Below, piece after piece: positions 39,474 through 55,433 of a stretch of 64,000 nt of DNA. Position 1 is the first letter of the stretch. Each line of letters begins with the position of its first letter. The translations under genes were made by a program, and so were the position numbers. This DNA comes from Azoarcus sp. GTDB taxonomy: Bacteria; Pseudomonadota; Gammaproteobacteria; Burkholderiales; Rhodocyclaceae. The notes under the pieces are model-generated. The model saw nothing but the letters and a program-made list of their open reading frames with translations. It was not told the DNA's origin and did no database searches. The stretch lies in the NCBI GenBank assembly GCA_031285965.1, contig JAITVD010000015.1:1-64000 (forward strand), written 5' to 3'.

Positions 39474-40811
39474 TTATATTATATACTGAATAAATACTAA
39501 CAATGCTATTGCTAGTATAGCCTCAACGATTGTCAAAGCAGTATAAACACTCCGAAATAATAAAAAATTTGATAAATTCATATATTTGGCGAACAAGAAG
39601 AAAATAATTAAAATTGAAAGAAATTGTCCTAATAGAATAGACAACACCACACCCAACAACCCTTTATCGAGCATCAGCCATACAGATATAAAAGTAACAA
39701 TTACACGCACTATACCTGCTTTTACAACCGCACTCACATCACCAATAGCTTGTAATGCCACTACAAGTAGAAACCCTCCCGCTCTCAATGCCCCCAACAA
39801 ACACAGAAATTGAAATGGAACAATTACAGCAATCCATTTTTCTCCAAATGCCAAGGGTATTAATATATCAGATGTTGCAAAAACTATTAAAAATAACGGA
39901 GCAATATAAAGTTCTGTAAATTTTGTTTTTTGTTTTAATGTATCAAGAAATCTCTCACGCTGCAACTGTAATCTTGCAAGAATTGAAATTGATGAATCCC
40001 ATAATGGAGCCGCAAATAACTGGTTAAGAGCTTGAAAAAGCTTCATTGCAAGCATATAATAGCCAAGTATTGTTACCCCAAGAATGCGTGCAACAATAAG
40101 TTCAACCCCTCTTGTTTCTACTAAATCAATAAATTTTGTAAAAGCAATATATCCAGAATATCTGAATAACTCTTTTAGTGAAACGAATGAAAAAACAACA
40201 TTTGGTCGCCAAGGTTCGTTACACCAAAGCACGATAAAATTTAATATGTAAAAAACAAATAATTGAATAACAAAAGTCCACACTCCAAAGCCGTTAAAAG
40301 CAACTGCAATTGCTGTCATACCACTTATAAAGTTAGCAAACATTGTACGAAAAGCTAGTACTTTATAATTCAATTTCCTGCGTAGCAAAGCCGGATGAAT
40401 ACTCGACAAGCCCATCAATAGAAAAATGGGTGACAGTGCCGCGATAATAGGTTCAATGCTTTTAATTTTGAATACTTCCGCATACCAAGGAGCAATCAAA
40501 TACACAGCAACACTTAAAATAAGACCGAGACCCATCGCCCCCCAAAAAGCACTACTCAAATGAAGCTGTGTCAGTGTTTCTCGCTGAACAATGACTTGTG
40601 CAAAAATTTGTTCGACAAATACTTCTCCGAGTGTAATAAAAAGCAGTGCAACCGCAAAAGCACCAAATTCTTCTGGGCTGAGGAGGCGTGCCAAAATTAA
40701 AAAGACTAGAAATGTGACACTTCGCCCGAGCCAATTTTGAGCATAAGCCCAAAATGTAGCCATCCATGCATTCGCTTTAGTCTGAATTTCAATAGGGACT
40801 TTATTATTCAC
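39474..40811 (-). CDS. Wzx-type polysaccharide flippase
   Basis: A 445-residue membrane protein with about 12-14 predicted helices, matching the WzxC/Polysacc_synt family (ARLLSPEEFGAFAVALLFIT near the N-terminus). It flips lipid-linked repeat units across the inner membrane. The start is a GTG at 40811 that overlaps the upstream glycosyltransferase by 8 bp. Strongly AT-rich compared with the chromosomal core. A decayed pyruvyl transferase follows after 108 bp. Confidence 0.85.
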   Translation of the reverse strand: MNNKVPIEIQTKANAWMATFWAYAQNWLGRSVTFLVFLILARLLSPEEFGAFAVALLFITLGEVFVEQIFAQVIVQRETLTQLHLSSAFWGAMGLGLILSVAVYLIAPWYAEVFKIKSIEPIIAALSPIFLLMGLSSIHPALLRRKLNYKVLAFRTMFANFISGMTAIAVAFNGFGVWTFVIQLFVFYILNFIVLWCNEPWRPNVVFSFVSLKELFRYSGYIAFTKFIDLVETRGVELIVARILGVTILGYYMLAMKLFQALNQLFAAPLWDSSISILARLQLQRERFLDTLKQKTKFTELYIAPLFLIVFATSDILIPLAFGEKWIAVIVPFQFLCLLGALRAGGFLLVVALQAIGDVSAVVKAGIVRVIVTFISVWLMLDKGLLGVVLSILLGQFLSILIIFFLFAKYMNLSNFLLFRSVYTALTIVEAILAIALLVFIQYII

Positions 40812-41976
40812 CGAAAAGCCTCATTAAAATAGTATTCACTCTTACAGCCCATGCCTCACCTGAAAAATTGGCTATCACATGGTTTCGTACCGCAGCGGCA
40901 AGAGAATCATCCAGAACAGACATGACCGCATCCGCAAAACTGTCTGCCTCAGTAGCCACCAAGGCATTCAATCTAGTTTGCGAACCCACTCCCACAACAC
41001 CTAGCTGGGTAGAGACAACGGTTGACGCCCCTGCCAACATCGCCTCAACTGTCTTAATTTTTACGCCTCCACCGCTTATCAATAGCACAACGGTGACAGG
41101 ATTAGAGTCATAAAATTCAGCAATGTCCCGCATAAAACCCACAAACTCCACTGAGGCATCACTATTTGTAACAAACGCACGTGGAGGATGGCTGTCCGCC
41201 ACGATAAGCCGAGACTCAAGGATGACGTAAACAATTTGCGGCCAAATAAAATCTAAAAACCAGACAAGCCCACCCACATTAGGGCTGTGCGCAAACGATC
41301 CTGCAACCCTTACTTTGTAAGGAATAGGACACCCTTTCGGAAAATCTATCGGCAGCCCCATGTTTGATGATCTAACTGCGTGGCTAAGACCACTCAAAAG
41401 CGTCGCGTCTTGTTTTGATAAAGTAAGTGCGCACAAAAACTGTTCATAAAATTTAGCTTCGTAGTGCGTCCAATATATCCAATTGATACATTCTTTATAT
41501 TTCTGTAGAGATTTTTTAAGTTTCGCTCGGCGAAAAGAAGAAATAATGTAAGCATCCTGCACATTCATCACTGTTTGTACAGAAGTATAAACAGTGATGA
41601 ATTGTACTATTTGAGGAAATAGTATCCAAATAATATTCAGATCATATCCAGCAAGAGACGATGATAAAGCAGATGGTTTATGAAAACAGACAATACGAAG
41701 AAATTTCAAAAAAAAATAAAAAATATTGGTCTTTATGACATCAATTTTTGATATTTTTAAGGACACTATTTTTATCCAATCATAATATTCCTTCAATGCA
41801 TCAAACTGCCTAACTTTATCCTCATATCTTTTTAGGTCAGAAAAACAGAGAAACCCTATAGAATTATATTTTTTTAACTGTTTCAACTGTGCAAAACAAA
41901 AAACACCCTCACTATGTGCCACTTTTTGACCATATGTGGATGAAGACACCACAAAAATGCGAAGGTGTTTGTTCAA
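40804..41976 (-). CDS. glycosyltransferase (GT-B, family 4-like)
   Basis: A 390-residue cytoplasmic protein with the GT-B layout: N-terminal RIFVVSSSTYG, a middle AGSFAHSPNVGGLVWFLDFI typical of sugar-transferase linkers, and a C-terminal donor-binding region with ISGGGVKIKTVEAMLAGAST (the GxG-K-E motif). Likely adds one sugar of the EPS repeat. The start is a TTG at 41976 supported by AGGAG 9 bp upstream. It overlaps the wzx gene downstream. Confidence 0.85.
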   Translation of the reverse strand: MNKHLRIFVVSSSTYGQKVAHSEGVFCFAQLKQLKKYNSIGFLCFSDLKRYEDKVRQFDALKEYYDWIKIVSLKISKIDVIKTNIFYFFLKFLRIVCFHKPSALSSSLAGYDLNIIWILFPQIVQFITVYTSVQTVMNVQDAYIISSFRRAKLKKSLQKYKECINWIYWTHYEAKFYEQFLCALTLSKQDATLLSGLSHAVRSSNMGLPIDFPKGCPIPYKVRVAGSFAHSPNVGGLVWFLDFIWPQIVYVILESRLIVADSHPPRAFVTNSDASVEFVGFMRDIAEFYDSNPVTVVLLISGGGVKIKTVEAMLAGASTVVSTQLGVVGVGSQTRLNALVATEADSFADAVMSVLDDSLAAAVRNHVIANFSGEAWAVRVNTILMRLFGE

Positions 41977-42246
41977 TTTTCAAACTCCTCTCAAACAGTC
42001 CATAACAACAGAAATTGTTCCACTGAGCCCCCTAACCCGAACCATCCACCACCATACCCTAAGTTCTCTAAGCATACCAAAAACATCCAAACAAAACCAC
42101 TGCACCGCTTTCCGTTCACCTACTGCTCACTGATAGAACCCACTTCGCCTGTGTCGCCAAAATAATGAAACCACGATGGTTGGTAACGGAAAGATCAAAT
42201 GGTCTGATCGCAGGATGGGCATCCTCACCTTCCTCAAAACGCACAC
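41977..42246. other. 270-bp gap between glycosyltransferase genes
   Basis: No gene recognised. Composition changes abruptly from the AT-rich neighbours to a C-rich stretch on the + strand (about 42000-42130). It may be an old insertion or deletion scar. Confidence 0.3.
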
Positions 42247-43569
42247 TCAATTCCAGACTGCCTTACGATATATCTTCGCAATTTCTGCCTCATGTTCCAT
42301 CATCGTTTTTAGTTTGCTTCTCACGATGCGTGGTACGCTTGTTGGGGCATTATTTATTTGTTTCAAGAGTTCCTCTTTTGAATTAAAAATCCACTCAGTA
42401 GGCAATAAATCTTTGATTCCGGCATTACATGAAGCCAGCACGGGTACACCGTGGTCAAGTGCCTCAATGGCAACCAAACCAAATGTCTCTTGCCATCTGC
42501 TTGGAAAAATCAGAACATCTATACTCGAAAAAACCCGGTCTATATCATCACGCCGAAATCGACCATGATTGATTACCTTAGGCGAAATAATTTTCCTATC
42601 ATCACCCCAAAGATGAAACTCAAGATCAGAGTTGGTATATTCATGTGCTAAATCAAAAAAATCAAAAAAACCTTTATATTCTAGATACGGCCCAATATAG
42701 CTAACCCGCTTGGGTGAATTGGTCAGACGCTCTGATATGGGATAGTTCATTACGCTAGAATTAGTAACTGGAACTAAATCAAACGATTTTAACTCGAATA
42801 GCAAATTATATTGATAGACATCACGAGCGATTGTGCTATTAAAATGAAATCGGGTTATCATCGAAAAAATGTCCTGATAGTAAGCATGTAGTGCCTCCAT
42901 ATTGGAGATATATTTTTTGTCCCATGTATGAGTATCTTGTGATAACAGACCAGTAGCAGCAGGTCTCGCACCACGTAAGCGTTTCAAAAAATCACGCAAT
43001 TGTGGGTAAATTCCTAATTGAAAAACACGGAGAGCAGATGTACTCATAGCCCGATTCATCCCGACATTGCACCAAAACTCAGTACTATTATCGTTATGCC
43101 AGCTTCTACCCGAAAAATAAAAATCTGGCACAGGTGATAAACCAAAATAATCGTGGCTCGTAAAAATAACAGGAATGTGGCATTGCTTGGCCGCAAGCAT
43201 GAATTCCCTGTACAAACCCATCAAAGTGTGGATATGGATAACATCTGGCTGAAAATCTTCAAACAAACGCAAAAAAATACCCATATCGGAAGGTTTGCAA
43301 AAATCTCTTGGTTGCCGAATGCCTCCAAATAAGGGCAACGGCAAAGAATTTACTAATCCGAACCGGATCAGTCCAGCAAAACCCGTTTGGGCTGGCTTTA
43401 TATAGGCACGACGAACAAGTGGATTTAGGCTCTCGGGATAGACACAGGCTACCGTATGTCCTGCTGCGACCTGTTGTTGCAACAAATCCAATACATACCA
43501 TGTCTGTCCACCAGTGCGAGCAGGCGGAAAGCCTAGCGCATAATGCAAGATACGTAATGTTTTCTTCAT
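42247..43569 (-). CDS. glycosyltransferase family 4 (GT-B)
   Basis: A 440-residue protein with the GT4 N-terminus RILHYALGFPPARTGGQTWY (the P-x-x-GG-x motif) and a C-terminal donor site including SIDVLIFPSRWQETFGLVAI and EALDHGVPVLAS. Predicted retaining transferase using a nucleotide sugar to extend the EPS unit. It lies 85 bp after the secreted WbsX-like gene and 270 bp before the next glycosyltransferase. Confidence 0.88.
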   Translation of the reverse strand: MKKTLRILHYALGFPPARTGGQTWYVLDLLQQQVAAGHTVACVYPESLNPLVRRAYIKPAQTGFAGLIRFGLVNSLPLPLFGGIRQPRDFCKPSDMGIFLRLFEDFQPDVIHIHTLMGLYREFMLAAKQCHIPVIFTSHDYFGLSPVPDFYFSGRSWHNDNSTEFWCNVGMNRAMSTSALRVFQLGIYPQLRDFLKRLRGARPAATGLLSQDTHTWDKKYISNMEALHAYYQDIFSMITRFHFNSTIARDVYQYNLLFELKSFDLVPVTNSSVMNYPISERLTNSPKRVSYIGPYLEYKGFFDFFDLAHEYTNSDLEFHLWGDDRKIISPKVINHGRFRRDDIDRVFSSIDVLIFPSRWQETFGLVAIEALDHGVPVLASCNAGIKDLLPTEWIFNSKEELLKQINNAPTSVPRIVRSKLKTMMEHEAEIAKIYRKAVWN

Positions 43570-43654: not shown

Positions 43655-44725
43655 TCATTTTTCGAATACTTTCTGAATACGCTGCAAATATTCAAAGCCA
43701 TACCGCTTGGTTGGTTCGATAACAGACCCTTCTTCATATTCGTTCCAACAGCATAACATTCCGATACCTTTTGTTTTTGCTATGTTACGGATGATTACAT
43801 CGTACCCTGATCGCAAGTGCATTTCAAACTCCTGCGGTGTCGATATTGAGTTATCATGAAGAGCATCCTTGCTCCCTCCCCACAGACGCTTATTCCACCC
43901 TGAAATCATCGGCACAAAATAAGATAAGCTGCTATTTTTCAAAATCCAGTCCCACTGCATGCGACAATTAGCATCCAGTTCAACAAAACTGTGTGAGGGT
44001 CGTGTTGCTGTATGAAAATCTCCGCTCATGTCGAAATAATAGTTATAAGCAGAAATCGCATCAAATCCAGATTTTCGCGCAAAATCTTTAACCCAAAACT
44101 CAGAGGCTTCCGTACAAAGCACAAAGTAAATACCGTCCAAACCCACTTTATGCGCAGCACGTTGTGCCCGTTCCAGCATTTCTGCTGGCAGCATTCCAAT
44201 TGCTTTGGCTTGATTTTTCAAAAATTCACCTGAAAAAACAAAAAGAACAGGTTTGTTATCAATACGCAAATACTCAGTATTTCGCATGTGCAATTTGTCC
44301 CATTCCGCAAGTGATGCAGGAGAGCGAAAATGGTTTGCCCATAGCAAAGAATAACGCACACGTGATCGTGCGGATGCTTTAAGATAGGCACGCACTGATA
44401 TCTCCTGCAGAGGACGTTCTTCTTTCCAATACCAGCAAAAAGTAACAAAATCAATTCCATAATCAGCCATCCAGTTTAATTGCTGATTAAGTGTTTTCGG
44501 TTTTTCGTCGTTATACCAACCAAGCAATGGCTCCAGATCAGGGTAAGGCTTGATGACTTTCCACGGATCAGGTTTATATAATCCCATCGCGGCAGACCAG
44601 CCTGGATAATAATATACACCAATAGATACTTCCCCCAATGCGGCTCCACTAGCCATTAGAACAAGAATTGAAAACAGCACTTTGAACCACGCCCCCTCTC
44701 TTTCCGTAGCGGAAATACTTTTCAT
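43655..44725 (-). CDS. secreted WbsX/GH99-like protein, copy 1
   Basis: A 356-residue protein with an N-terminal signal or anchor helix (VLFSILVLMASGAALG), then the WbsX/GH99-like domain: GVYYYPGWSAA, CWYWKEERPLQE, LLWANH, and the C-terminal CWNEYEEGSVIEPTKRYGFE. The family is named for putative glycosyltransferases but is structurally akin to endo-acting glycoside hydrolases. The exported form suggests action on polymer in the periplasm or outside. AGGAG precedes the ATG. A paralogue lies at 48648-49736 on the other strand. Confidence 0.75.
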   Translation of the reverse strand: MKSISATEREGAWFKVLFSILVLMASGAALGEVSIGVYYYPGWSAAMGLYKPDPWKVIKPYPDLEPLLGWYNDEKPKTLNQQLNWMADYGIDFVTFCWYWKEERPLQEISVRAYLKASARSRVRYSLLWANHFRSPASLAEWDKLHMRNTEYLRIDNKPVLFVFSGEFLKNQAKAIGMLPAEMLERAQRAAHKVGLDGIYFVLCTEASEFWVKDFARKSGFDAISAYNYYFDMSGDFHTATRPSHSFVELDANCRMQWDWILKNSSLSYFVPMISGWNKRLWGGSKDALHDNSISTPQEFEMHLRSGYDVIIRNIAKTKGIGMLCCWNEYEEGSVIEPTKRYGFEYLQRIQKVFEK

Positions 44726-44755: not shown

Positions 44756-46057
44756 TTATCCATTAAAACTCCTTGAATAAGAATATATAAACAAGAAGAA
44801 TATGATTATATCTGGTGAAAAAACATAAGGCAAGAACATCGCAGGTACGGCAAACCCTACGAGTACCGCTATTTGGCTAGGATGCCGGTACATACATCCG
44901 AGGAGAAGAGATGAAAAAACAATAAAAGCTATTCCAAGCGGAATACCCATATCATAAAATATGCTGAGCATGCCATTCTCTACGTTTTTGAGATCAGCTT
45001 CTTGAACAAGTGCTTTGGGACCAACCGAACCACGAGGATATCCATATAAATAATATTCATCCAATACCTCCCACACCTGCACAAAAGAGTTTCCATGCCC
45101 GACCATAGACGGATCTTCCCCAGACAAATTTAACGAAATCCAGTGAGAAATCTTTCCTCCGCTATAGTCATCAATAAAGTAAACGAGAAAAGAAAGAGCA
45201 AGTATTCCGAACATAATTACTGACATAACACGCATCATGAACACAGCACCTATATTCCATTCCCGTCTACACACAAACAAAAGCGTTATCATACCGAGCA
45301 ACGCAGCAAGCCAAGCACATTCGGGAGAATGTTAAAGCCAGCACGATTCCTGCCATTAGAAAAGCTAACACGCTATAACGTATGCGTAAAACATCTGTCA
45401 TACCAGCTAGTTTTATGCTTGCGATAAAAATAAAAAATAATCCTGTAGATGATTTGGGGCCGTCATTGGCAATCCCATTCTTATCCATCCCCCTGCGATA
45501 AACCAGGCAGTAGCAAGTTGAGCCGTACCCCTTCCTATTATAGAAAAGGATCAACTTGGGTCGCTATATAGAATGCAACTGCGAGAAACAAAAACCCAGA
45601 TCCTAGTATGTAGATAAGTTTTACGATTCGCATAAGCACTTCTTTTTCTGCCGTAAAAAGCCATCCCTTGCATACTATAGCAAATAAAACAGGAAGTGCA
45701 TATAAACGAGCATAATACAATCCTTCAATTTGATAATTGTCAAATGTTGCGATGAACATATTAAAGAATTAATATAAATATTATAAATATATAAAACAAT
45801 TGATTTTCTTTTATTTTTATCCGCCTCAATGCCGAAAAGCTCAACGTTATCAGTAAAATTTCTCTAACTGGGATAAGTACATTTGGCATACCCAGAAAAT
45901 TAAATAAAACTGATCCAAAAAATGACAAAATAAATACAAATGAGATTATACAAGCCAATTCTGCCCCTAGGATTTCTGCACTCCCTTCATTTCGAGCTAG
46001 CAAAATACACTCCCCGTAAAAAAATGCGCCATTCCCACCTGTAGCGTTCTTACACAT
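44756..46057 (-). pseudogene. decayed Wzy/O-antigen ligase-like polymerase gene
   Basis: Four overlapping minus-strand frames (46057-45761, 45759-45538, 45554-45267, 45301-44756) are all hydrophobic and together give one multi-helix protein of about 420 residues. A large loop (GKISHWISLNLSGEDPSMVGHGNSF..) and GHGNSF-type motifs resemble Wzy/WaaL proteins, and adjoining ends match at LALTFS / ECAWLAALLG. Frameshifts near 45762, 45545 and 45320 break it, and perhaps another lies near 45480. It is probably an inactivated second repeat-unit polymerase. Confidence 0.7.
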
Positions 46058-48647: not shown

Positions 48648-49736
48648 ATGGCCAAAAAGACAGCTTTCCTATTTGCATTTATATTGATGGCTGGCCAGTC
48701 CATTGCCAACGACATTTCTCTTGGCATGTATTATTTTGGGGGATGGTCATCCACTTTTGGCCTAGGCGCTCCGACCCCGTGGCGGCGCATCCAAGAATAC
48801 CCAGAAAGGGAGCCATTGCTTGGTTGGTATGATGACTCAAGGCTGGAAACAGTTGGCAGACAACTGGAATGGATGGCTGACTATAACATCGGCTTTGTCG
48901 TATTTTCATGGTACTGGAGTAATAGAATGCCGAAACCTGAGACAGCGGTTCGCTCTTATCTTAATGCCCCGGCACGTGCTCGCATCCCCTATGCGCTGCT
49001 TTGGGCAAATCACGATAAAGCTCCAACGTCAATCGAAGAGTGGGATGAAATGGTTGAATACTGGCTTGCTCGCCATCTGAGCAATCCGGAATATCTAAAA
49101 ATTGACGGGAAACCTGCTGTGTTCATCTTTTCAGCGGACGGTTTTAGAGATCAAGCCAAAGTCATGGGGATAGAACCCGCAAAAATGCTGGAACGTGCCC
49201 GAGATGCCGCTAAGGCGAAAGGGTTGAATGGCCTGTACTTCGTGCTTTGTGTCGCTGCGACTGACTACTGGATCGAAAAGTTTGTTCCGTCCGCTGGTTT
49301 GGATGCGATTACTGGTTATAACTACCACTTCGGCAGAGCGGGGCCTCACAATACCCAAACGCCTCCATCGCATAGTTTTGCTGAACTTGACAGAGGCTAT
49401 CGGATGCAATGGGCATGGATACTGTCGAAATCCAAAATTCCTTATTTTATTCCAATGACATCTGGGTGGGATATGCGCCCCTGGGGAGGAAGCAAGGATC
49501 CGCTCCATGATAATTCCATGTCAGTGCCAGATGAATTTGAGATACACTTGCGTACTGGATACGATGCTATCACTCGGAATCCCGTTAAAACTAAAAGTAT
49601 CGGGATGCTATGTTGCTGGAATGAATATGGAGAAGGTTCAATCATTGAGCCAAGCAAGCGTTATGGTTTTGAATATTTACGGCGCATCCATAATGTTTTT
49701 AGCAGAGAGAAAAATGATATTGTTCATTTTAAATAA
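48648..49736 (+). CDS. secreted WbsX/GH99-like protein, copy 2
   Basis: A 362-residue protein with a signal peptide (AFLFAFILMAGQSIA) and the same domain as copy 1: GMYYFGGWSSTF, FSWYWSNRMPKPE, LLWANHDKAP, GWDMRPWGGSKDPLHDNSMS and CWNEYGEGSIIEPSKRYGFE. It is the only + strand gene in the island and is clearly paralogous to 43655-44725 throughout its length. It is flanked by the AT3 and polymerase genes. Catalysis is unproven; an endo-glycanase or sugar-modifying role on the secreted polymer is inferred. Confidence 0.75.
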   Translation: MAKKTAFLFAFILMAGQSIANDISLGMYYFGGWSSTFGLGAPTPWRRIQEYPEREPLLGWYDDSRLETVGRQLEWMADYNIGFVVFSWYWSNRMPKPETAVRSYLNAPARARIPYALLWANHDKAPTSIEEWDEMVEYWLARHLSNPEYLKIDGKPAVFIFSADGFRDQAKVMGIEPAKMLERARDAAKAKGLNGLYFVLCVAATDYWIEKFVPSAGLDAITGYNYHFGRAGPHNTQTPPSHSFAELDRGYRMQWAWILSKSKIPYFIPMTSGWDMRPWGGSKDPLHDNSMSVPDEFEIHLRTGYDAITRNPVKTKSIGMLCCWNEYGEGSIIEPSKRYGFEYLRRIHNVFSREKNDIVHFK

Positions 49737-49804: not shown

Positions 49805-51133
49805 TCACCGTATAGCGGGATCTGTATTCGCCCGTTCGATGCAAGGTTTTGCCGCTTCTTGCAAACGCTGGAGATTTTTTCTTTCCAATATAGCTAATGA
49901 AAATCCAAGCAAAATCTCCATTCCCAATAGGAGTGATTTATTGAATGGACCAGATACAATCCATGTACTAACTAAACAAAAAGCAACAATCCCTTGAATA
50001 ATACGGTTAACCTTCAACCCACTATTTTCAGTATCTATTTCTTTGCGTGCTCTCCAAAATATCCAAAAAAACACATACAAAAATAGAACTAGTCCTAGCG
50101 CACCCGTTTTAACAAGAACGAACATTATTCCGTTATGTAGATGTGTAATATAGCGCTGCGGTTTCCCCGCCAATGGTATGTAAATTCCCAAATCAACTTC
50201 ATAACCTAAGCCATGTCCAAAAAATAAATTAAAAATATTCCCTTCCTTATAAGCTATCAAGGTCCTTGCCGTTTCATAGCCACGAAAATTTAGTGTAATG
50301 CTTGTCTTGTCTGAAAAATCAGCTATTGTCAATTCCTGTTCAATTCGCATAATTTTTCCTAAAAAAGATAAATTATTCTCAGTAAGTGAGTTGATAGAAA
50401 AAGATATGCTAATCAACAATATTATCAAAATACCTGAAAATGCAATTAACTTTCCTAGATGCCTTCCCCATAGATAACCCTTTAATCCAAAATACATAAG
50501 CAGACAGGCTATAATAGAAGTTCTAGAAAACGATAAGATAAAAGATACGGCGCATAGGAAAAAAGCAATACAGAAAATATAGATAGGCATTTTTAAACTT
50601 TTACGCCAATCTCCTAAAGCAGCCAAGAGAAAAGCAAAACTTACGGCTGCCCCCAAAACACCTCCTCCTACTTCTTTTCGGATATCAGTCGCCGTCATTG
50701 AAAATAGTTGTGGATCAATAATAAAATTGGAAATGTGAAATATAGCCTGCACTGTACTTGCATATATAAACATTTTAATTATACCCGTAACGTTCGGAGA
50801 TAGACAACCAAACGTGTACCCTATAAAAATAATTAAAACCGGGTTAAAAAAATACCAAACATCTTTGTAGTAATTATCCCGATTATTATCAATGCTTGAT
50901 ATTGTTCCTGTTACTATCATTAGTAAAAAACAACCTGCAATTAAAAAGAGTGATTTTGGTAAAACTCTTCTTCTAATTATAAAAAATATACTCACTAAAA
51001 TCATAAAATAAATGTTGATAAACGTAATAATTTCAGCAGGAAAATAAGGTGATATTAAAAAAATGATAAATGCGCTATATATAGGCCATACATATTTTGT
51101 ATCGTGCGGGGAGGGGGGGGGGTATTTATTCAT
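49805..51133 (-). CDS. Wzy-like polymerase (O-antigen ligase family) with poly-C tract
   Basis: A 442-residue membrane protein with about 11-12 helices, a large periplasmic loop near residues 250-320 (FRGYETARTLIAY, FGHGLGYEV, ITHLHNGIMFVLVKTG) and the GHG..H motif usual in Wzy/WaaL proteins. It probably polymerises EPS repeat units. The ATG overlaps the stop of the upstream GT2 gene by one base. Codons 4-7 are TAC CCC CCC CCC, a run of ten C that would shift the frame if one base were lost or gained; the copy here is in the open state. Confidence 0.82.
   Translation of the reverse strand: MNKYPPPSPHDTKYVWPIYSAFIIFLISPYFPAEIITFINIYFMILVSIFFIIRRRVLPKSLFLIAGCFLLMIVTGTISSIDNNRDNYYKDVWYFFNPVLIIFIGYTFGCLSPNVTGIIKMFIYASTVQAIFHISNFIIDPQLFSMTATDIRKEVGGGVLGAAVSFAFLLAALGDWRKSLKMPIYIFCIAFFLCAVSFILSFSRTSIIACLLMYFGLKGYLWGRHLGKLIAFSGILIILLISISFSINSLTENNLSFLGKIMRIEQELTIADFSDKTSITLNFRGYETARTLIAYKEGNIFNLFFGHGLGYEVDLGIYIPLAGKPQRYITHLHNGIMFVLVKTGALGLVLFLYVFFWIFWRARKEIDTENSGLKVNRIIQGIVAFCLVSTWIVSGPFNKSLLLGMEILLGFSLAILERKNLQRLQEAAKPCIERANTDPAIR
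51113..51122 (-). repeat. homopolymer tract (C10 on the coding strand)
   Basis: Ten consecutive C on the minus strand, followed after one T by another CCCC. It lies in codons 4-7 of the polymerase gene, in DNA that is otherwise very AT-rich, so it is not explained by composition. Such tracts in surface-structure genes commonly mediate phase variation. Confidence 0.7.
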
Positions 51134-52098
51134 TACAACATCTCTAATAATTTGTTAGCACCCTCATAAAACGCAAAACTCTTTTCTTTCGCAATCAATT
51201 TATTTTTTCCATGCGAAAACAGTGATTTTACTAAAAAAGCTAGTGCCCTTATATGAAAAACACAAGAGAGCGAAAAAAAAGTAATTTTAGATACAATTGA
51301 TGAATAATATTTCAAATAATAGTTTTTATATGAATGTACTGTCCTCAGTAAAGCCATACGACCAACCCAGTCCTTCCCTGCGCCTTCATAATGCGTGACA
51401 GTAACGGATGACAAATAAGCATTTTTTTTCCCTAGCTTACGCACCCGTAAACAATAATCAACATCTTCACAGTACATAAAAAAGTTTTCATCAAACCCCT
51501 TTATAGATTCCCAAATATCTCTGCGGGTTGCCAAGCAAGCTCCTGATATCCAATCAACTCCAAAATGTGAAATTTTATAAAAAACAGAATTCGTCTGAAC
51601 TCGCCTGAAAATAGATGGAAGCCAAAAGTATTTTTCCAAGCCAATCCACGAAAGCACCAGCCTTAGGGGTGTATGGTCTAACCCTACAGAAAATTGCGGG
51701 CGACCATCTCCATAAATAAGTCGGCAACCCACAGCACCTGCATCCTCTTTTAGGGCAAAATCAATTAGAGGATCAAGACAAGACTCAATACGTGTGTCAT
51801 TATTCAGAAGCAAGATAATTTTTCCATGAGCACTGGAATCTATAGCTCGATTATTTCCTTTTGTGAAACCTAAATTTTCAAGCGATTCAATATATTGAAT
51901 ATCTTTTCTCTCCCGTAAATAATATTGACTTCCATCAGTAGAGGCATTATCAATGACAATAGTTTCAAACGTATATCGCTCAAATGCTGTACTCAAAGAA
52001 TCTAAGCATTTCTCCAAAAAATTCATGCCATTAAAATTAACAATTACTACAGAAACATCAGGCGTTGATTTATCTGACTGAGAAAAATTTTTATCCAT
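51133..52098 (-). CDS. glycosyltransferase family 2 (rhamnosyltransferase-like)
   Basis: A 321-residue GT-A enzyme: VSVVIVNFNGMNFLEKCLDS, ETIVIDNASTDGS, ENLGFTKGNNRAI and LLLNNDTRI (metal-binding acidic motif), then FMYCEDVDYCLRVRKLG. This pattern is typical of the rhamnosyltransferase-like GT2 subgroup. It overlaps the upstream GT4 gene by 8 bp and the downstream polymerase by 1 bp, so translation is coupled. Confidence 0.9.
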   Translation of the reverse strand: MDKNFSQSDKSTPDVSVVIVNFNGMNFLEKCLDSLSTAFERYTFETIVIDNASTDGSQYYLRERKDIQYIESLENLGFTKGNNRAIDSSAHGKIILLLNNDTRIESCLDPLIDFALKEDAGAVGCRLIYGDGRPQFSVGLDHTPLRLVLSWIGLEKYFWLPSIFRRVQTNSVFYKISHFGVDWISGACLATRRDIWESIKGFDENFFMYCEDVDYCLRVRKLGKKNAYLSSVTVTHYEGAGKDWVGRMALLRTVHSYKNYYLKYYSSIVSKITFFSLSCVFHIRALAFLVKSLFSHGKNKLIAKEKSFAFYEGANKLLEML

Positions 52099-53209
52099 TA
52101 TTCAACCCTTTTTCCATAAAAGAAATCAGTAATTCTTCATATTGTTTAAGGATATGACTCCAAGTAAACTCGTCCAAATAACGTTGCAAGTTTTTCTCAC
52201 GTATCATGTCCAGAATATCTGGTTTAGACAGAACAAACTCCAGAACTACAGATAAAGACTCTGCGTCTGCGAAATAATAACCTGACTCGCCCAATACCCA
52301 ACGGTTAAAGCGGTTATTGTGCGCTATGACTACATTACTAGCCGCCATTGCTTCTACTAGGGACGGATTAGTCCCCCCCACCTGATGACCGTGAAAATAG
52401 GCTAGACAATAAAAGCGTAGTGACTGCACAATACTTTTATCATAAATTGCACCTATAAAAATAACTTCATCACTTGCAGCTTCTAGTACTTTTCTTTGAA
52501 AATCATTATTGCTTATATTGTAATTTCCAAGCACCACAAGATTCATGTTACGGGGTTTCTTTGAAAATTCTTGCACAATTTCAAGTATTGAATTTTCAGG
52601 TTCTGGCCGCGCAATCAGTGTAAAATAATTGCGCGGTTTCAAACCCCATTTTTCCAGATGAGTTTCAGATACCTGACCAATGCCTTCAGCGCCATAAAGA
52701 ATAGTTGTTATTTTTTTCGGATATGTATGAGAACTTAAATGATTTTTGATTTCTGGATGATCGGCAATCAAATAATTTCCAAAATAACAAGCGGCTCGCT
52801 CATTCAACCAAAGCCATATTTTTGCGACAATATTCCATTTAGAACGCCGCCACTCAATACCATCCATACAGACAATATTTTGAATGCCACTCAGACGCAA
52901 GCGAACCCAAAAGATAGCCGTATTATATCCACATGTAAGGCATAGATCTTTATGCTTCGCGGCATGCTTAATCGTCAGCCAATCAAACACAACCGTTCCC
53001 AAAGCACCTTGCTGGCGCACAGGAATATGGACACGTTCTACTCCGCACCACTCATCGCACCAAAGGGAACCACTCCCTTCTTCTTGGCAATAGACTGTGA
53101 CCGGCCATCCTTTGGAGACTAAATAAAGCGACAATTGCTCCGCAAAAGTTTCAAACCCACCATGTGCCCCCGGAACACCACGGGTACCAATAATTCTGAT
53201 TTTTTTCAT
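52091..53209 (-). CDS. DUF1972-type glycosyltransferase family 4
   Basis: GT-B enzyme with the DUF1972 N-terminus KIRIIGTRGVPGAHGGFETF and IVCMDGIEWRRSKW, followed by a GT4 donor domain (FTLIARPEPENSILEIVQEF, GGTNPSLVEAMAAS). These proteins are usually rhamnosyl or fucosyl transferases of EPS units. The start is taken at the ATG 53209 (372 residues), 11 bp after the epsI stop; in-frame TTG 53224 and ATG 53218 are alternatives. Confidence 0.88.
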   Translation of the reverse strand: MKKIRIIGTRGVPGAHGGFETFAEQLSLYLVSKGWPVTVYCQEEGSGSLWCDEWCGVERVHIPVRQQGALGTVVFDWLTIKHAAKHKDLCLTCGYNTAIFWVRLRLSGIQNIVCMDGIEWRRSKWNIVAKIWLWLNERAACYFGNYLIADHPEIKNHLSSHTYPKKITTILYGAEGIGQVSETHLEKWGLKPRNYFTLIARPEPENSILEIVQEFSKKPRNMNLVVLGNYNISNNDFQRKVLEAASDEVIFIGAIYDKSIVQSLRFYCLAYFHGHQVGGTNPSLVEAMAASNVVIAHNNRFNRWVLGESGYYFADAESLSVVLEFVLSKPDILDMIREKNLQRYLDEFTWSHILKQYEELLISFMEKGLNNG

Positions 53210-53220
53210 CTTGTCCATCC

Positions 53221-53904
53221 TCAATTCATCACTTTAGAGCCAAGCAAAATTTTTCGGGATTCGGGCGACAATGCAGGAAGCAATTCATTGATAAACTTAT
53301 CCTGCAACGCATAAGAATCATGAGCATCTGGATTTATTTCAGAAACACGAAACAAGATTCCATCTGGAATATGACCACTCAAACCATACCGAATACGGAC
53401 TAGCGTCTGTTCTACCAAACCACGTACCAACACATCCCCTAAGCGTATCCAATAAGTCACAGGCTCATGCCGCTTTCCCAACTGAGCTACGACTCGCATA
53501 ACCGGGAATGAAACTGTTCCTGCCTGAAGCATGTCTTTCCGCTTGCTTGCTATCTGAAATCCTTGAGCGGGATAACAAACTTCCGGCTTATGAATCTGTT
53601 TGTCATGCGATTGATCCGCACCATATGCAAGAGATAGCATGATGCGCCGCCCTTCAGTATTGACGTAAGTACGAGATAATAATTTTGAATAAATCTGGTC
53701 AAGGATAGTCTGGGTCTGTGGATTGATGACTCCTGCCGCATTCCTCTCTTCCATTTGCCAATCAGCAAATTTCTGCGGAATGATAGCCTCAATATCAAAC
53801 TCAACCACCTGAACTCCTGCACTCGGCGTTAACACATGCGCCAGAATTGATGCAAAAAGCATCGCCAAAGCAATCAAAAGTGCACGGAAAGTTATAGAAG
53901 GCAT
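53221..53904 (-). CDS. epsI: EpsI family exosortase-associated protein
   Basis: A 227-residue protein with an N-terminal membrane helix (ALLIALAMLFASILAHVLTP) and the EpsI domain: IIPQKFADWQMEE, HKPEVCYPAQGFQIAS and PVTYWIRLGD. The C-Y-P motif is the family's hallmark. EpsI is found fused or adjacent to exosortases in EPS loci; its exact role is unknown. It lies between the acyltransferase and the DUF1972 glycosyltransferase in the xrtB operon. Confidence 0.92.
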   Translation of the reverse strand: MPSITFRALLIALAMLFASILAHVLTPSAGVQVVEFDIEAIIPQKFADWQMEERNAAGVINPQTQTILDQIYSKLLSRTYVNTEGRRIMLSLAYGADQSHDKQIHKPEVCYPAQGFQIASKRKDMLQAGTVSFPVMRVVAQLGKRHEPVTYWIRLGDVLVRGLVEQTLVRIRYGLSGHIPDGILFRVSEINPDAHDSYALQDKFINELLPALSPESRKILLGSKVMN

Positions 53905-53982: not shown

Positions 53983-54534
53983 TCAGTCATCTCCAACCGA
54001 TAGGTTTTTAATCCGTTGGGCAGGTGTCCCTGCATAAAGACCATTTGGCAAGGTAGACTCAATAACGGTCGCATTTGCTGCAATAACACAACCTTCCCTG
54101 AGCGTTATACCTGGAAGAATAGTGGCTCCCATACCAATCCAGCAACCACGTTCAATAATAACGGGCTTTTTTATGTCAACCGATCCAGAGCCTCTCCTAA
54201 AAACGTTATTCGCATATTCATGTGTGCCAGTAAGGATTCTCACATACGGACCTATGCGTACATTTTCTTCTAGTTTTATCATAGAAGATCCGTCTAAAAA
54301 ACAACCTATATTTATAGCTACATTTATATCACAATACAACTTATTCGACCCAATAAATACACCTTCCGCAATTATGGAGGAAGGATGAATTTTGCATCCA
54401 ATCAATCTTAAAAATATAACTCTAATTCGCCTAGGAAATATTGCGGACATTTGAAAAGAATTTAGTATCCGCCATGTATAAGTCAAGAATCTGGACTGCT
54501 TGTTATATCTCGGAAATATATGAAACATCTTCAT
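53983..54534 (-). CDS. left-handed beta-helix (hexapeptide-repeat) acyltransferase
   Basis: A 183-residue transferase with the WcaF/maltose-acetyltransferase layout: hexapeptide repeats from about residue 50 (SSIIAEGVFIGSNKL, VRIGPYVRILTGTHEY with catalytic His), then KPVIIERGCWIGMGATILPG and YAGTPAQRIKNL. It probably O-acetylates an EPS sugar in the cytoplasm. AGGAGGT just before the ATG is a near-perfect ribosome site. It lies 8 bp after xrtB. Confidence 0.9.
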   Translation of the reverse strand: MKMFHIFPRYNKQSRFLTYTWRILNSFQMSAIFPRRIRVIFLRLIGCKIHPSSIIAEGVFIGSNKLYCDINVAINIGCFLDGSSMIKLEENVRIGPYVRILTGTHEYANNVFRRGSGSVDIKKPVIIERGCWIGMGATILPGITLREGCVIAANATVIESTLPNGLYAGTPAQRIKNLSVGDD

Positions 54535-54542
54535 GCCACCTC

Positions 54543-55433
54543 CTACTGTTTTTTACTCTGCCAATTGCAGGTAAAAATAACACGTATTAGCGAATCAACA
54601 CCTATGATAAGCAGCAGTGCGCTCAAGAACAGCACCATACCTGCAAATCCATGTAGAAAACCTTGTCCCACTTCATCTCCAAAGTAATAGGTGACTAAAG
54701 TCAGCACCATCACACGAATGACATTGGCAGCAAAAGAAATCGGTACAATAAGAATTGCAAGGGCAACATTCCTGACAAGCGATTCGTGCCTTACCAAGTT
54801 GAGATAAAGCAGCCCTAGAGATTCCAATGTAAATAACGTATGCAGACCCGCGCAAGCATCCGCAACAAGTAATTGGTATTGACCTATTTGGAGAACAACT
54901 CCTGATCTAGCAATTGGATAACCCACCTGATAGAGCACATTTTCAGCGACAGCGGACACGGCTATTTTCATCGGCATCGTTACCGCATCGACCAACGACC
55001 CGGGCAACGGAACCATGAACATCATGAAAAATAGGGGAAACCAGCCTATTTTCATTGCGCGTGCGCCCAGCAAGACCAATCCTGCGCCGAGCAGTATCCA
55101 GAGCAAGGAACCCACCTCAAGAATAGGTACGTCCTGTGAGCGACCAAGAATGTATGCCAACAAACCAACAACTATGAAGAGCCAACCCGCGCTGGTTCCT
55201 TTTTGCCTTTCCCTTGCGGCAAAGATTTCTGGCCACTTGCGATAGAACAACCACACCGAGATAGCTAGCACGATTGGCCCGTGCGCTTGATCGTCTGAAC
55301 TCCAGATTCCTTGAAACAGCCTGACACCAGTCGGGATGTACATGACGCACAGCCCTACCAGCACAATCAACCACGGAGCAAATTCTTCTATTTTCTGGCG
55401 AACCGAAACTGAGTCATCGAAGTTCAAGACCAT
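54543..55433 (-). CDS. xrtB: exosortase B
   Basis: A 296-residue membrane peptidase with about eight helices. Catalytic triad motifs are all present: Cys in VADACAGLHTLFTLESLGLL, Arg in AANVIRVMVLTL, His in FLHGFAGMVLF. The N-terminal SSDDQAHGPIVLAIS is typical of exosortases. The B subgroup is assigned from the sequence near GRSQDVPILEVGS and from the adjacent epsI. Exosortases process PEP-CTERM proteins during export; in EPS loci they are tied to polymer production. It heads the EPS operon, with a 195-bp gap to greA. Confidence 0.9.
   Translation of the reverse strand: MVLNFDDSVSVRQKIEEFAPWLIVLVGLCVMYIPTGVRLFQGIWSSDDQAHGPIVLAISVWLFYRKWPEIFAARERQKGTSAGWLFIVVGLLAYILGRSQDVPILEVGSLLWILLGAGLVLLGARAMKIGWFPLFFMMFMVPLPGSLVDAVTMPMKIAVSAVAENVLYQVGYPIARSGVVLQIGQYQLLVADACAGLHTLFTLESLGLLYLNLVRHESLVRNVALAILIVPISFAANVIRVMVLTLVTYYFGDEVGQGFLHGFAGMVLFLSALLLIIGVDSLIRVIFTCNWQSKKQ

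Follow-up and report, generated by a model that had tools for sequence, protein, structure and literature searches.

A ten-cytosine tract in the first codons of a Wzy_C-family gene of Azoarcus sp.: a candidate slippage site in a glycan island

The phase-variable genes of Campylobacter are the nearest described counterparts of the locus reported here, since they carry a G/C homopolymer of like length within the open reading frame and are frameshifted when that homopolymer slips (PMC6321876). The PhasomeIt survey of Campylobacter used a cut-off of 7 or more for G/C tracts and found lengths of 9 and 10 to be the commonest, and poly-G/C tracts of 7-8 or more are regarded as slippage-prone (PMC6321876). 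Neisseria meningitidis likewise possesses SSR contingency loci, in which slippage-prone repeats lie in surface-structure genes, and variable repeats were found in its metabolic genes too (PMC5084427). A parallel in position is offered by the 5' poly-A of Listeria inlA, a homopolymer in the first codons whose slippage leaves a very short peptide (Orsi et al. 2010, PMC2831843). Across 99 genomes, the same study found that poly-A/T but not poly-C/G tracts were placed towards the 5' ends of genes. Here we describe a run of ten cytosines at the start of a Wzy_C-family gene in a 64,000-nucleotide stretch of Azoarcus sp. DNA, the whole of which was analysed and is referred to as the window. In the part of the literature that was searched, we found no report of a phase-variable wzy gene beginning with a poly-C tract.

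The tract, its gene and the predicted effect of a slip

On the sense (minus) strand the start of the Wzy_C gene contains ATGAATAAATA-C10-T-C4, its first codons being ATG AAT AAA TAC CCC CCC CCC TCC CCG CAC and the N-terminus of its product M N K Y P P P S P. The plus-strand equivalent consists of G10 at 51113-51122 together with A at 51112 and G4 at 51108-51111. The C10 run occupies nucleotides 12-21 of the ORF, which correspond to the last base of codon 4 and the whole of codons 5-7. An earlier note on this DNA had described ten Cs in codons 4-7 of an intact Wzy-like gene and a glycosyltransferase family 2 (GT2) stop overlapping its start, and both were confirmed, the Cs at 51122-51113 within the minus-strand ORF and the overlap as listed in Table 1. 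The further claim that translation is coupled up to the tract is anatomically right, because the last A of the GT2 stop TAA is the first base of the Wzy_C ATG. The structure of the mRNA near this start was unremarkable (z +1.0), and scans for promoters and terminators yielded matches at chance level only.

Table 1. Features of the Wzy_C locus and the surrounding glycan island (coordinates of the window).
Feature	Position	Strand	Evidence
Wzy_C-family (O-antigen polymerase/ligase) gene, 442 aa, intact	49805..51133	-	Pfam PF04932, residues 189-352; ORF
C10 homopolymer, codons 4-7 of Wzy_C gene	51113..51122	-	Sequence and chance estimates
T then C4, lengthening the C-rich stretch to C10-T-C4	51108..51112	-	Sequence
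TAATG, GT2 stop and Wzy_C start, one-base overlap	51131..51135	-	Sequence, ORF ends
Glycosyltransferase family 2 (GT2) gene, upstream	51133..52098	-	Pfam PF00535, 63.4 bits
DUF1972/GT4 glycosyltransferase gene, upstream	52091..53224	-	Pfam PF09314
DUF3485 gene, same glycan/exosortase locus	53221-53904	-	Pfam
Hexapeptide transferase gene, same glycan/exosortase locus	53983-54534	-	Pfam
Exosortase EpsH gene, same glycan/exosortase locus	54543-55433	-	Pfam
Wzx-like flippase gene, same AT-rich glycan island	39474-40811	-	Pfam (PF13440, PF13692, PF13439 for the 39474..43569 set); GC profile
GT4 glycosyltransferase gene, same AT-rich glycan island	40804-41976	-	Pfam; GC profile
GT4 glycosyltransferase gene, same AT-rich glycan island	42247-43569	-	Pfam; GC profile
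Degraded second Wzy_C gene, in pieces	44756..46057	-	Sub-threshold PF04932 at 44921-45316, E 2.2e-4; fragmented ORFs

A match of 45.5 bits to PF04932, against a curated cut-off of 31.7 and covering the full 149 positions of the model, places the gene in the Wzy_C family. PF04932 covers both polymerases and ligases, and does not separate Wzy from a WaaL-type ligase. Genes for a Wzx-like flippase and for glycosyltransferases share the island with it, which suggests a role as Wzy polymerase. Outside the tract the gene has a GC content of 34% and only one more CCC codon, its remaining prolines being encoded by CCA (4), CCG (4) and CCT (5), and it was probably acquired horizontally. The middle of the island is flanked by two WbsX/GH99-like genes in opposite orientation, at 43655-44725 (minus strand) and 48648-49736 (plus strand), which are apparently related copies.

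To describe the consequence of slippage, we translated the gene with altered tract lengths. Tracts of C8, C9, C11 and C12 give computed peptides of 18, 25, 19 and 26 aa, respectively, and C7 and C13 remain in frame. After the start codon, the reading frame has no further ATG until codon 44, which is situated beyond the first hydrophobic stretch. Thus, the expectation that a one-base change would truncate the protein is borne out, with computed products of 19-25 aa and codon 44 as the earliest possible rescue start. With truncation this early and no ATG ahead of that codon, the tract might work as an ON/OFF site, for which it is predicted to be mechanically competent. C10 is also long enough for slippage by the usual measure for G/C repeats (7-8 or more), and the early frameshift with no nearby rescue start predicts that slippage would alter expression. 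Matches to MutS and MutL are present in the genome, so slippage should be dampened. The earlier note had additionally proposed that loss of the frame switches polymer length or production off. The effect on the polymer is uncertain because the genome contains another intact Wzy_C gene elsewhere (L231) in addition to the degraded one at 44.8-46.1 kb, and the ambiguity of PF04932 adds to the uncertainty.

Rarity of the run and its conservation

No G or C run in the window is longer than the C10 tract, two C7 runs coming next, and the tract lies in an AT-rich island of 34-41% GC. Markov simulations of the 38-55.5 kb block (orders 1-3) produced a G/C run of at least 10 in 1, 1 and 0 of 101 trials, and extrapolating the lengths of the runs present in the island gives 0.005-0.008 expected runs of this size. 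Overall, about 0.005-0.01 such runs would be expected in the island. Both estimates agree with the view, put forward before this analysis, that such a run is unexpected in AT-rich DNA. C10 is less exceptional genome-wide than within its island. The whole 2.34 Mb draft genome (90 contigs) has 33 bounded C/G runs of at least 8, and five runs 10-12 long are found inside contigs, the Wzy_C tract included. The other four internal tracts of at least 10 comprise a C10 at the start of a T2SSE-family ATPase gene (MQPPPQ), one tract just before a pilX gene, one just before a UPF0093 gene, and one in the intergenic stretch ahead of a galE-like gene; 0/4 are inside a glycan gene.

Two further homopolymers were observed. 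A C7 on the plus strand (G7 in the sense direction) at 52373-52379, inside the upstream DUF1972 glycosyltransferase gene, is the second longest G/C run of the AT-rich island. The end of contig C8 of the same draft (G000:C8:11244-11349, L010) is a poly-G roughly 106 bases long, which is probably a sequencing or assembly artefact.

To find relatives of the Wzy_C gene, we searched 61 related genomes and 399 genomes of the order, scanned the GTDB genomes twice, and included viral contigs and plasmids. Outside the gene's own genome, these sets gave only matches of ~30% identity or weaker, and the genomes of the same genus yielded no relative at E 0.001. In relatives of 28-31% identity the alignment begins, for the most part, at residues 13-21, and the N-terminal tails of these proteins vary in both length and sequence. 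In nine Wzy relatives, no C/G run of at least 6 was found near the start. Additionally, no such run was found near the start of the 29 other Wzy_C matches in the genus, leaving the gene at 49805-51133 as the only one with a start-proximal tract among the 30 matches listed. Retention in homologues would support, without strictly defining, membership among phase-variable loci, and the tract is not kept in these homologues. Among the genes compared, only this one has the tract, which is located in a non-conserved tail preceding the part that aligns. Recurrent poly-C as a mark of the glycan-polymerase genes of the genus was considered and rejected, the other Wzy_C genes having no tract near their starts.

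Sense-strand poly-C at gene starts across the genus

We surveyed 22 genomes of the genus, which gave about 130 loci with C/G runs of at least 10, and 112 tracts were placed relative to genes. Gene starts were taken from a simple codon-score caller and are approximate; the caller fails in AT-rich DNA and missed the window's own Wzy_C gene. Runs of at least 10 occur at about 2.8 per Mb in the genus (150 in roughly 53 Mb) and at roughly 0.75 per Mb in a sample of 60 genomes of the order, although the ratio between the two is rough, with many of the genus runs at contig ends. Long tracts were found within 60 nt of a called start in 27 of 112 cases, compared with 257 of 2544 for runs of 4-7 at the same loci (Fisher p 3e-5). 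The sense base was C in 24 of these 27 start-proximal tracts, as against a ratio of 138:119 for the short runs. Random placement in the same loci gave 7.4 +/- 2.5 sense-C tracts at starts, with a maximum of 17 in 2000 trials, compared with the 24 observed. About half of the start-proximal tracts are located just upstream of the called start, untranslated or in another gene, and most of the intragenic sense-C tracts encode PPP or PPPP in frame. Loci with a start-proximal sense poly-C include L049, L090, L098, L102, L111, L128, L151, L154, L158, L170 and L211.

The genes bearing these tracts are of mixed function, among them feoB, two TetR genes, a D12 methylase and TonB receptors. A class I E/Q tRNA-synthetase-like (glutaminyl/glutamyl) gene, which we read as glnS, carries C14 in frame (MTSAATPPPP), and a start-proximal tract is also present in an AA-kinase/GNAT protein gene that we read as acetylglutamate synthase. 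In the case of Dus, Maf, MreD and UPF0093 genes, the tract is found shortly before the gene. The N-terminal tail of a TetR orthologue contains C10, C12 and C14 in three species (L253, L256 and L259, from genomes G008, G019 and G002), all of them in frame, and the orthologues in the seven other species read have no tract. As they appear in these sequences, the in-frame TetR tract lengths fail to separate selection from tolerance. An ON/OFF switch would hardly be expected in a tRNA synthetase gene, which indicates that the genus class, taken together, is not a set of contingency genes. Some of its members (the methylase, the receptors and the Wzy_C polymerase) could be contingency genes.

One tract of the class stands in an AAA-ATPase gene (L090:1450-1530, minus strand). 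Here the ATG with the better-spaced RBS reads to a stop right after C11, and another frame is open; the C11 is possibly an OFF-phase allele or a length error.

Competing explanations and comparison with known systems

With moderate confidence, we interpret the tract as a slippage-prone C10 in its ON phase, located in a tolerant, non-conserved tail and belonging to the genus-wide class. The run would most likely have arisen by slippage expansion in an N-terminal tail tolerant of prolines, in a genus that is prone to such runs on the sense strand near gene starts, irrespective of gene function. We infer that slippage is elevated at C10. A slip of one or two bases would then leave a peptide of 18-26 aa in place of the polymerase, slippage in the other direction would bring the polymerase back, and the Wzy_C gene would probably be incidentally hypermutable, mutated more often at this site than elsewhere. 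From the sequence comparisons, the presence of the tract appears best explained by tolerance. Against tolerance, the composition of the island makes the tract unexpected by about a hundred-fold, so that drift alone would have to rely on a rare event. Additionally, a surface polymerase is the type of gene classically under phase variation. By analogy with poly-A/T tracts (PMC2831843), the clustering near starts could itself reflect selection for switchability.

It is possible, if rather doubtful, that the C10 is instead a contingency locus kept by selection, where slipped-strand mispairing would toggle the polymerase and so alter the length or presence of the surface polymer. This phase-variation switch was what the earlier note had proposed, and a good part of its basis stands: the tract is of slippage length and within the Campylobacter switching range (PMC6321876), its early position leads to the truncation described above, the start of the gene is coupled to a stop, and the tract belongs to a surface-glycan gene in a glycan locus where a run of this length is strongly unexpected. 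The proposal is weakened by the lack of a start-proximal tract in any relative or other Wzy_C gene of the genus, by the location of the four other long internal tracts of the genome outside glycan genes, by the presence of MutS/MutL, and by similar tracts in housekeeping genes. On a broader scale, long sense poly-C at or just before start codons might be a genus-wide device that selection has placed so that many genes, from regulators, methylases and transporters to housekeeping genes, form heritable variants in expression, the Wzy_C tract being one case; we consider this unlikely. The genus-wide clustering of sense poly-C at starts is relevant to the question of whether these tracts serve as switches or are mutational debris that is tolerated.

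Two other readings were considered. The true tract length may differ from ten, or the C10 may consist of read errors in a draft of 90 contigs. The poly-G of at least 100 bases that ends contig C8 and the many long tracts at contig ends in related drafts indicate that homopolymers are troublesome in these assemblies. However, the C10 is mid-contig with normal sequence on either side, and its assembled length keeps the 442-codon frame, which a wrong length would do only one time in three; we consider an artefact improbable. We give very little credence to the proposal that the proline run YPPPSP is what matters, either to the protein or to its translation (through pausing at consecutive prolines near the start, for instance), with the C run as a by-product. 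While the PPP or PPPP encoded by most start-proximal intragenic sense-C tracts of the genus would fit such a role, all three prolines of the run are CCC though the gene uses the other three codons as well, the prolines are absent from relatives, and the upstream half of the start-proximal tracts is untranslated or lies in another gene.

Compared with the rest of the Wzy_C/PF04932 family, the gene has the conserved domain in common, and differs from relatives that have no tract at the start. In N. meningitidis, deep sequencing of colonies and comparison between strains confirmed the variation (PMC5084427), whereas the Wzy_C tract is known from one assembled sequence. If the tract does switch, it would give an environmental and probably uncultured betaproteobacterium the kind of surface-polymer variation known from host-associated bacteria. 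Unlike the genomes of the 99-genome survey (PMC2831843), the genus described here has sense poly-C at gene starts, and its 5' bias of sense poly-C would be unusual against that survey if upheld by better gene calls. Were a genus-wide device to prove true, it would stand in contrast to a survey in which poly-C/G had no bias to 5' ends.
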